From: an uncultured Bdellovibrionales bacterium
GTDB lineage: Bacteria > Bdellovibrionota > Bdellovibrionia > Bdellovibrionales > UBA1609
Assembly (NCBI GenBank): GCA_903833275.1
Contig: CAILEP010000020.1
Coordinates: 1-64,000 of the forward strand
Direction of reading: 5' to 3'
DNA: 64,000 nucleotides
Part shown: positions 51,036 through 54,995 of the stretch, piece by piece
Numbering within the stretch: position 1 is the first letter of the stretch
How the letters are laid out: every line of letters begins with the position of its first letter
The notes under the pieces: generated by a model
Seen by the model: the letters and a program-made list of their open reading frames with translations, nothing else
Databases searched by the model: none
What the model was told of the DNA's origin: nothing
Program-made: the position numbers and the translations under genes

Positions 51036-53657
51036 TCAATCGTCACTACTATCATTTTCGTCGTTTGCGAGTTCGGCATCGACATTTTTATCTGCCGGCG
51101 CTTCGCCCGCGTTCTCGACGGCAGCCCGAAGCTCAAGAATCTGAATTGCCCACCGAGCGGCCCCGCGCGGGCTTTTGACTGTGTCTATTTCATCAGGCTT
51201 ATTTTTTTTGCCAATAACCAACGCGATGGCATCGTCAATGGCGCTGACGACCTCTTGTTTTTCATTCATGCCCCAGTCGCGCCCCTCGGTGCGTCGATCC
51301 TGAAAAACTTTGGCAGCGGCGGCCCGAACGTCGTCGCGATAGTAATATTTTGGTATCGTCGTAGCCCTCTTCGTTTTGTTTTGAAAATAGATAGTTTCAA
51401 CGGGCTGAATTTGTACGGAGGTTTTTAAAATATAATCGAGAGCGCGATCACGCAAAACCTCAGCAAAAGTATCACTTTCTTTCGAATCAGAAAGAGTGTT
51501 TAGGTGGCTTTTGAGCTGCCGGAGGTCAGCTAGGTATAGTTGGTTTTGCAGGCTCGCAAAAAATGAGTGGGCAAGGGCCTTCGCCTGCCGAACATCTTCG
51601 TCAGACAAATCATGTTGTTTGCTGTCGGCCCCGATATAAGAGCGAAACGCCGGGCTTTCGATGAGTTCATTGAATCTTGCCAACCAGTCTTGGGCAAGGC
51701 TTGTCGAAATTGGGGGCAACAGCTTTGTGAGCCCACCGAGGCGCTCGATTTCTGCCGACAAATACTGGCGAGAGCGCAAATGGGCCTCTTCAATATTAAG
51801 GCTACTGATGGGGCCAAGGGCGTTTGCGACCCGAATTTCTAACGAATTTTTTGTCAGAGTTCTGAGCAGAAGCATTCGCGGGGCTAAAATTTTTGCAGCT
51901 TCAACCGCCGAGTCTAACACAATCTCACTTGGCGGTTTATTTTTTGACAGAAGGGGGCTGCTTTTCTCATTTAAAATCAATTCAAGAAGCCGTTCGGGGG
52001 TCTCGGTGAGTGCGCGTTGGCTTTCGAATTTTGAACTTTCAAGGCTCGAGGGCCCTTGATCGAAACTTAAACAGCCAAAAAAATCACCAAGATGTTGATC
52101 CGTGCAAAACGCCAGGAGCGGGCTCGCAGAGGGTTTTTCGTCAAAATAGAGATTGCGTATAGCGGCGCGGTCATAGTGAAAAGCGCCGACACCAAGGTGA
52201 ATTTGTCGGCCGACAAGAAGATCTGTCGGCATGGGGTTATAATCCATAACACTGTCGGTGAAAATTTCTGTCGTTGGCGCGGACAAGGTCTTTACGTATT
52301 CGTCCATGAGTTCATAAATTCTAGCGATAGAAGCAGACGCGCCCAAGCTTGCGGCAAAATTATGCCGAAGGCCGAGGGTGTGCCCGACTTCATGCGCGAC
52401 AGAGGCACGAATGTAATCCCGTGAAACCTCGAGGGCGGCTTCATGATTAAGGCGTGATAAGCCTGAGTGGTCGTTATATATTTCACCGCTTTTCTCGCTG
52501 GGCTTCTCGCAGAGGCGCGAGGGCATAAGGCCGGCTATGGTGAGATCAGTGTGCGGAGTGGTTTTTTTGCGGCCAAGGCTATAAGCCGCATCTCTACCCA
52601 AAAGCGCAAAGGCACTTGTTAAATAAATCTGCGCGTGAAGTATTTCGCCCGTACGCGGGTCGATTTGCGCATCAGCCACAGACGACTCAGCGGTGTCGTC
52701 CGACATCCATTGAATCAAATTGTAATCGGGGTTGGGGGCCGAAACGCCAGTTGGGGCGTCAATGACACTGATTTTTTCGTCGCCAAAAGCACTGTTCCAG
52801 TAAAGCACGCCCTCGCGAATGGCATCTCGATATTCGGCCGGGGTGTTTGCTGATATCGCATAAACAAATTTCTTTTCTGGGCGCGGGTCAATTCGTGTCG
52901 CGTATGCATCCACCCCGCCATGAAGGCGCATGAGGGCATTCGTTTCGAAAAAACCAAACCCAGGGTGGCTATTAGAGGCCGTCTTGTATTCAGGGTTCGC
53001 CTGATAGGGGCTCAAGTAGTAGTGCAACTCGATGGGCAAGTTCTCTTTTCTTGAATCGGTCGAGATCCCGACAGCACGTTGAATGATGACTAAGTTATTT
53101 CGCGTACCAAAATAAGCGTTTTCGATGTGATTAAATTTAAGAGAAAGTTTGGCGGTCGCGGGGCTGTGGGTGCGGGCGCTGTCGTCGACGTCGCCGACCA
53201 CCCAGTCCGTAACAGCCTGAATTTCAGAGAGGCCATGGTTGAAATCGAAAGTGATTTCATCGGCACCTTCACCGAGTATGGCAAATTCGGCTAGAATTCG
53301 TGTCTGAGGGAGGTCGTCAGTTATAATCTGGCCAGTTGAAGCCTCAAGCATATAGAGGTTTTGGCCTCTCTTTCGAAAGGTTACAATTCGACTTTTTAGG
53401 CCTTCAAATTTTGGCGCGGGAGAATCCCAAATAATATCAGTTTGAAAAAGAAATTCTTTTTCAAGGGCCGCCTTTTTAAGAGAGACCGAAAACTGATTTT
53501 CTGAAACTGAAAGGGGGTTGTTGGCTGAGCGAATCGCGAAAGAGTCCTTGGCCTTCGCGGCTTGGGCGGCCGTCGTTGGCCGAGAGCAAGAAGTAGAATA
53601 TAAGCTGGCGGTCGCTAAGAAAGAGATCAGAAAGAATCGAGCCGAATTGTTTTTAAT
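51036..53657 (-). CDS. Large zinc metalloprotease (HExxHxxGxxH), lipoprotein, apparent ATT start
   Basis: The zinc motif HEVGHTLGLRH and a downstream SVMDYNP (Met-turn-like) mark a metzincin-type protease similar to DUF4953/DUF5117 proteins. The first ATG in frame is at 53351 (771 residues), but the frame stays open for 102 more codons. At its far end it encodes a lipoprotein-like leader, KNNSARFFLISFLATASLYSTSC. No ATG, GTG or TTG exists in this frame between 53670 and 53351. An ATT at 53657 stands seven bases after AAAGGGG. A GTG at 53665 would give the same leader after a +1 insertion in the A5 run. I therefore give the ATT start, 873 residues. Confidence 0.7.
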   Translation of the reverse strand: MKNNSARFFLISFLATASLYSTSCSRPTTAAQAAKAKDSFAIRSANNPLSVSENQFSVSLKKAALEKEFLFQTDIIWDSPAPKFEGLKSRIVTFRKRGQNLYMLEASTGQIITDDLPQTRILAEFAILGEGADEITFDFNHGLSEIQAVTDWVVGDVDDSARTHSPATAKLSLKFNHIENAYFGTRNNLVIIQRAVGISTDSRKENLPIELHYYLSPYQANPEYKTASNSHPGFGFFETNALMRLHGGVDAYATRIDPRPEKKFVYAISANTPAEYRDAIREGVLYWNSAFGDEKISVIDAPTGVSAPNPDYNLIQWMSDDTAESSVADAQIDPRTGEILHAQIYLTSAFALLGRDAAYSLGRKKTTPHTDLTIAGLMPSRLCEKPSEKSGEIYNDHSGLSRLNHEAALEVSRDYIRASVAHEVGHTLGLRHNFAASLGASASIARIYELMDEYVKTLSAPTTEIFTDSVMDYNPMPTDLLVGRQIHLGVGAFHYDRAAIRNLYFDEKPSASPLLAFCTDQHLGDFFGCLSFDQGPSSLESSKFESQRALTETPERLLELILNEKSSPLLSKNKPPSEIVLDSAVEAAKILAPRMLLLRTLTKNSLEIRVANALGPISSLNIEEAHLRSRQYLSAEIERLGGLTKLLPPISTSLAQDWLARFNELIESPAFRSYIGADSKQHDLSDEDVRQAKALAHSFFASLQNQLYLADLRQLKSHLNTLSDSKESDTFAEVLRDRALDYILKTSVQIQPVETIYFQNKTKRATTIPKYYYRDDVRAAAAKVFQDRRTEGRDWGMNEKQEVVSAIDDAIALVIGKKNKPDEIDTVKSPRGAARWAIQILELRAAVENAGEAPADKNVDAELANDENDSSDD

Positions 53658-53705
53658 AAGCTCACCCCTTTAAAGTGGGCTCAATATACAGTTTCGGCTC
53701 GCAAA

Positions 53706-53720
53706 GAGCGAGATTCGCTC
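53706..53720 (-). terminator. Weak hairpin downstream of pilT
   Basis: GAGCGA / TCGCTC with a three-base loop, followed on the minus strand by TTTGCGAG. The T-run is only three bases, so termination is doubtful; it lies in the gap before the metalloprotease gene. Confidence 0.25.
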
Positions 53721-53780
53721 CCAATATTAAGTCTTAAATGTAAAATATAACTAGGGTTTTAGAAATTTTGTCAGAACGTG

Positions 53781-54995
53781 CTAACCGCTTTTTTTGCCGC
53801 CTAAAACAAAACCTTTGGGGGCATTGCTGTCAGCTGGCGCGCCCGGCTTTGCCGCGGTCTTGGCGCCCTCTACAGAGTGAATCGTGATGCCACTTGAGGT
53901 TTTTGCGCTGGGGGGGCTCGAGGGCGCCTTGGTCGCACTAGGGGCGGGCGACTCTTTTTCTTTTGAAGCTTTGCCTAAGAAATTGTCAGAGGCCTCTTTG
54001 GTCACCTTGCCAGCGGCCACAAGAATTTTAAGGTGTGATTCAAAGTTCATCATTCCGTCGCCAGCACTTGTCTGCATAACAGAAGGGATTTGAAACGTTT
54101 TTCCTTCACGAATTAGGTTCGCCACTGCAAAAGTATTTAGGAGAATTTCGATGCAGGCGACTCGGCCGGGTTGATCCGCCCGGGGGAAGAGCGTTTGCGC
54201 TACAACTCCACGAAGGGATTCAGACAACATCACCCGAATTTGGGCTTGCTGAGCCTCGGGGAAGGCGTCGATGATTCGATCGACCGTTTTCGCTGCAGAG
54301 TTTGTGTGTAGGGTGCCAAACACTAAGTGGCCTGTCTCAGCGGCAGTGATCGCAAGTGAAATAGTCTCAAGGTCGCGCATCTCGCCCACGAGCATTGTGT
54401 CAGGGTCTTCGCGAAGTGCGGCTTTAAGTGCATTGGCGAAAGATTTAGTATGGCTGCTGACTTCGCGTTGATTAAATAGTGACATGCGATTTTCGTGCAC
54501 AAACTCGATCGGGTCTTCAACCGTCAAAATATGCTGACGTTCAGTCATATTGATGGTGTGAAGCATGGCGGCTAGTGTGGTCGATTTACCCGAGCCAGTT
54601 GGGCCGGTAACGAGGATGAGCCCGCGCGGGATCGAGATTAATTTATTCAAAATTTCTGGCAAACCGAGCTCTTGAATCGTTTTGATTTTCTCAGGGATTA
54701 CGCGAAACACAGCGCCCATCCCGCGCCGCTGCATAAAAACATTGCAACGAAAACGGCCGAGGCCGGCAACAGCGTAAGAGCAATCGAGCTCCCAGTTTTC
54801 AACGAACCCCCGGCGCTGCTTTTCGGTGAGAATTTCAAACACAAGGGCTTGCACTGACTCATTATTTAGCTCGGGGTGATCCAATTTCACCATTTCACCA
54901 TGCAGGCGTAGAAACGGCGGTGCGCCTGAACTCAAATGCAAGTCCGAAGCGTTCTGAGCTACCATGATTTTAAATAAATGATCGATTTGTGCCAT
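53781..54995 (-). CDS. pilT: Type IV pilus retraction ATPase PilT
   Basis: 404 residues. Walker A GPTGSGKST, Asp box LTVEDPIEFVH, Walker B LREDPDTMLVGEMRD, and the His box GHLVFGTLHTNSA are complete. The AIRNLIREGK-like motif reads AVANLIREGKTFQI. PilT powers pilus retraction. After about residue 340 there is a low-complexity Pro/Ser/Ala/Lys tail of ~60 residues absent from typical PilT. The gene is divergent from rng. Confidence 0.94.
   Translation of the reverse strand: MAQIDHLFKIMVAQNASDLHLSSGAPPFLRLHGEMVKLDHPELNNESVQALVFEILTEKQRRGFVENWELDCSYAVAGLGRFRCNVFMQRRGMGAVFRVIPEKIKTIQELGLPEILNKLISIPRGLILVTGPTGSGKSTTLAAMLHTINMTERQHILTVEDPIEFVHENRMSLFNQREVSSHTKSFANALKAALREDPDTMLVGEMRDLETISLAITAAETGHLVFGTLHTNSAAKTVDRIIDAFPEAQQAQIRVMLSESLRGVVAQTLFPRADQPGRVACIEILLNTFAVANLIREGKTFQIPSVMQTSAGDGMMNFESHLKILVAAGKVTKEASDNFLGKASKEKESPAPSATKAPSSPPSAKTSSGITIHSVEGAKTAAKPGAPADSNAPKGFVLGGKKSG

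Follow-up and report, generated by a model that had tools for sequence, protein, structure and literature searches.

Few AUU-initiated genes have been described in bacteria, and a reconstruction of start codon evolution recovered one AUG-to-AUU switch among 61,358 ancestral AUG starts (PMC5622118), consistent with the premise of a first-pass annotation of the present locus that ATT starts are very rare. Among Escherichia coli genes, infC and pcnB start at AUU (PMC4245954). Control of IF3 via the rare codon of E. coli infC is established, Streptomyces infC starts at ATC (PMC5472188), and pcnB expression is, according to the title of Binns and Masters 2002 (cited in PMC13009471), translationally limited by an inefficient start codon. 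The start codon of Staphylococcus aureus cvfC1 is also AUU, and in poor medium the rare starts tested in that work supported expression at about 10% of the AUG level (PMC13009471). Outside the ATN codons, Streptomyces sigR has an IF3-repressed GTC start, and its rare start lowers output (PMC5472188).

Here we describe a putative AUU-initiated metalloprotease gene in the first 64,000 nucleotides (the window) of contig CAILEP010000020.1 from an uncultured Bdellovibrionales bacterium (assembly GCA_903833275.1). Like E. coli infC, the gene appears to place an AUU, a codon discriminated against by IF3, behind a good Shine-Dalgarno sequence; however, the product of E. coli infC is IF3 and rare infC starts recur across bacteria, whereas this product is a protease and its rare start appears confined to a single genome. 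E. coli pcnB likewise represents AUU outside infC, in an unrelated protein. ATN starts are similarly found in S. aureus cvfC1 (AUU) and ccpN (AUA), but the rare start and strong Shine-Dalgarno sequence of cvfC1 are conserved among staphylococci and were mapped by experiment, neither of which applies to the metalloprotease start. The sigR start also lies outside infC, but differs in its GTC codon, in belonging to a regulator gene, and in having a shown function. The AUU start proposed here is probably another instance of a known phenomenon.

From its first ATG (53351-53349), the metalloprotease ORF occupies 51036-53351 on the minus strand, with the frame open further upstream to an in-frame TAA at 53672-53670. 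Between this stop and the internal ATG there is no in-frame ATG, GTG or TTG; the codons following TAA read AGG GGT GAG CTT ATT (53657-53655) AAA AAC, and exactly 102 codons separate the ATT, included, from the internal ATG. Re-reading the sequence reproduced the ATG, TAA, ATT, A5-run, GTG and AAAGGGG positions of the first-pass annotation, and its claim of 102 further coding residues without a standard start was confirmed by frame reading and by alignment with homologues. This 102-codon region (53352-53657, minus strand), which would be lost if the gene were annotated from 53351, carries a block, ALEKEFL...LKSRIV...LYMLEA, that is conserved in a nine-member alignment and extends across the internal ATG, itself the M of LYMLEA. 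Because homologues continue through the 102 upstream residues, and in addition possess a signal peptide, the internal ATG was ruled out as the start; the possibility of homologues beginning there without an export signal, which could have overturned the first reading, is contradicted by the starts of the homologues. The full-length gene therefore would comprise 873 codons from the ATT (51036-53657, minus strand), as indicated by the open frame, a family match, and whole-length alignment with eight homologues.

The encoded protein matches the DUF4953 Met-zincin family (PF16313) at 45.5 bits, above the curated cut-off of 24.2, over only about 90 of the 316 profile positions; all nine aligned members match the family. 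It shares with this family the HEVGHTLGLRHNF motif and a Met-turn, and the corresponding residues (HExxHxxGxxH with H422, E423, H426, G429 and H432, followed by M471) are invariant in the nine-member alignment; it departs from the family in the limited stretch of the profile matched, and identity among the nearest homologues is 30-40%. A search of solved structures gave only weak hits, to ADAMTS-5 in the zinc-site region (E 0.04). Translation from the ATT would begin with a signal peptide, (M)KNNSARFFLISFLATASLYSTS (53586-53657, minus strand), with a candidate lipidated cysteine at position 24. The description of this segment as a convincing lipoprotein signal peptide holds for the signal peptide and for Cys24, which is invariant in nine homologues, but less so for the lipobox, where Y-S-T-S-C does not fit the strict L-[AS]-[GA]-C pattern and is permissive rather than textbook. 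We consider the metalloprotease to be probably a lipoprotein, with Cys24 a candidate site of lipidation. As had been predicted, annotation from 53351 drops the export signal, which lies within the 102 upstream codons; since pipelines restricted to ATG, GTG and TTG would remove these residues, the protein would be called cytoplasmic. Elsewhere in the genome, a diverged metalloprotease paralogue (L032, G000:C8:199837-202398; 30% identity) was identified that starts at an ordinary ATG and whose signal peptide lacks a lipobox cysteine.

Comparison with syntenic orthologues placed the start more precisely. The gene order deoA-acyP-orf-metalloprotease-pilT-rng is common to the window and two genomes of the same genus (G001 and G002), where we take the neighbours to be deoA, acyP, pilT and rng from recognition of their sequences; the pilT-like gene lies upstream at 53781-54995 on the minus strand, its position conserved in synteny with loci L057 and L058. 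In these two closest syntenic relatives an ATG located 6-8 nt past a G-run opens the signal peptide, the start reading AAAGGGGTGGTTT-ATG-AAG in G001 and GGGGGGTTTTAATA-ATG-CGC in G002, as compared with AAAGGGGTGAGCTT-ATT-AAA in the window. The ATT (53655-53657, minus strand) is thus aligned with the orthologue start codon at a similar distance from the G-run, and the comparison of starts in related genomes proposed at the outset favours the ATT reading. Upstream of it lies a Shine-Dalgarno-like AAAGGGG (53665-53671, minus strand), and orthologue L004 of the same genus carries the same AAAGGGGTG. The GGGG-to-ATT spacing of 7 nt falls inside the 4-8 nt range common in sampled genes of the genome, bearing out the earlier remark that the ATT is well placed.

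A search of 99 related genomes found metalloprotease homologues in 45. Their starts appear conventional: 29 read by eye comprise 25 ATG, three GTG and one TTG, and a candidate standard codon is present in every locus of a further set of 80, some of which are among the 29 and which include two that are truncated and uninformative, as well as three for which the script picked a codon too far downstream while an upstream ATG is visible. With no clear case of a missing standard start among about 100 homologues, the ATT appears private to the window genome. Conservation of the rare start, not observed across these two sets, would be supporting rather than strictly defining, as a private AUU is possible. 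The evidence for ATT comes from one genome and one assembly: no other genome of the species was matched in a protein scan of genome contigs, the relatives recovered by an alignment scan with the same target were all at or below about 42% identity, and the exact start region was absent from the viral contigs searched.

Whether the single base that makes this codon ATT is right is the main uncertainty, and the main rival is a single-base assembly or sequencing error masking a true ATG in an ordinary gene. The ATG carried by orthologues at the ATT position and the division of the assembly into 35 contigs would fit such an error, and because true AUG-to-AUU switches are so rare (PMC5622118), even a low error rate competes with a genuine switch. 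However, an error would need to strike one base of a start codon, this position lies outside any homopolymer, and the remainder of the 873-codon frame is clean. Consensus base errors are also generally rare in well-covered assemblies, and we regard this explanation as unlikely.

A different explanation, raised in the first-pass annotation, invokes one A missing from the A5 run (53654-53650), either by error or as a real frameshift, such that translation would begin at GTG 53665 (MSLLKNNSARF...) or be rescued by slippage. One added A would indeed join the GTG frame to that of the metalloprotease, and GTG starts are common in the genome (43 of 252 sampled). Yet AAAGGG directly adjoins the GTG, leaving it without a spaced Shine-Dalgarno sequence; in the assembled sequence the run holds five A, the sixth that would have counted against an ATT start being absent, and the GTG ORF (53665-53663, in a different frame) stops after 12 codons (GTG AGC TTA TTA AAA ACA ATT CGG CTC GAT TCT TTC TGA). 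Furthermore, a run of five A is short for slippage, and orthologues set the start at the ATT, not 8 nt upstream. Taken together, these features disfavour the GTG with an extra A, which we consider very unlikely, and the ATT start appears much better supported from sequence comparison.

Initiation at AUU in this lineage is also consistent with infC of the family. In three genomes of the genus, infC has no standard start preceded by a Shine-Dalgarno sequence, and instead presents ATC, ATT/ATC or ATA after AGGAG. Across the family, with the window genome included, the first candidate with a Shine-Dalgarno sequence is ATT (12), ATC (7) or ATA (2) in 21 of 21 parsed loci, ten loci not being parsed. 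Family infC itself thus appears to start at ATT, ATC or ATA, which makes the infC analogy drawn earlier an apt one; infC being essential, ATN initiation is likely to be functional in the lineage. An infC-like autoregulation of the metalloprotease gene is not implied. Because infC, too, appears confined to these start codons, several N-termini in the family are likely misannotated, and automatic annotation likely truncates infC at the loci concerned (L041, L040, L042 and L077-L104; G000:C8:32121-32870).

In the reading we prefer, the ancestral start was probably ATG, and the lineage of the window genome now carries ATT. The AUU at 53657-53655 would be read by initiator tRNA, positioned by AAAGGGG 7 nt upstream, to yield the full-length metalloprotease as an exported Met-zincin-type protein and probably as a lipoprotein. 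AUU is a weak start against which IF3 discriminates, so the protein would probably be produced at a low level and its expression may be sensitive to IF3. Overall, we consider it likely that the gene is translated from AUU into an exported metalloprotease at low level.

The start is further associated with a predicted 64-nt imperfect hairpin (53638-53701, minus strand; arms CGAGCCGAA and TTCGGCTCG) enclosing both the ribosome-binding site and the ATT. The fold has a predicted energy of -26.6 kcal/mol and a z of about -4.6 (-5.5 with 500 shuffles), values flattered by a fold window chosen to fit the hairpin, given that a longer 181-nt fold gave a z of only -1.6. A z of -4.59 was reached by two of 252 sampled gene starts and one of 600 random 71-mers, and one of the two other extreme starts resembles a terminator from a reading of its sequence. 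The arm pair occurs only once in the genome, and the hairpin is not conserved in homologues, where predicted energies for 20 starts range from -2.7 to -18.7 kcal/mol. No Rfam match was found in the window, nor any match in a promoter and terminator scan of 53300-53900. If the mRNA starts upstream of 53701, the hairpin would further reduce translation; it might act as a translation repressor or as a pilT terminator or attenuator, or might be unformed if transcription starts inside it. A small hairpin, GAGCGA-ATC-TCGCTC (53706-53720, minus strand), is also predicted upstream. Together, 53638-53720 on the minus strand presents four segments (GAGCGA, TCGCTC, GCGAGCCGAA and TTCGGCTCG) that may pair as 1:2 with 3:4 or as 2:3 (CTCGC/GCGAG); this layout could be attenuator-like, with a 2:3 pairing that looks far weaker. 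That the AUU and hairpin form a translational switch controlling an exported protease, driven by temperature, by IF3 level or by refolding with the small upstream hairpin during transcription, seems quite unlikely.

As both start codon and hairpin predict poor translation, the gene could be effectively silent. A related explanation is that the gene is decaying, its start codon having been lost by mutation and its translation negligible. The inhibitory predicted hairpin would fit this scenario, as would a divergence faster than that of the gene's neighbours: the metalloprotease is 38.3% identical to its G001 and 38.7% to its G002 orthologue, with 55.2% between G001 and G002, whereas neighbouring genes show no gap so wide (60, 62 and 69% for deoA and 79, 69 and 65% for pilT in the same three comparisons). 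Similarly, 11 of 99 otherwise invariant columns are changed, one being the start Met itself, compared with 2-7 in other members, and relative-rate tests indicated an excess with several, but not all, outgroups, four of the six giving p below 0.05. Against decay, all 873 codons are intact, the ribosome-binding site, the HExxHxxGxxH zinc site and the Met-turn are kept, and the paralogue that exists is only 30% identical. We therefore view decay as very unlikely; low expression or relaxed constraint could account for the moderate acceleration suggested by these comparisons.

Finally, genes were ranked by dicodon coding signal upstream of their first standard start. In a survey of 452 kb, the metalloprotease ranked first of 393 genes and infC third; in an enlarged survey of 677 kb, representing about 22% of the genome, the metalloprotease was second of 559, behind a low-complexity repeat ORF. 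Its DNA is present once in the genome, on contig C20. A long ORF built of low-complexity (SSAAL/SSAAQ)n repeats (L069, G000:C11, 8808-9857, minus strand) has no standard start within its first 170 codons. A cytochrome c assembly (PF01578) gene (L045, G000:C8, 2493-4349, minus strand) has a weak coding signal just 5' of its ATG. A GNAT-like ORF (L054, G000:C2, 12454-13080, minus strand) shows coding signal about 47 codons above its first standard start (VIRELRTTDFESV...), and may likewise have a rare start or a frameshift.
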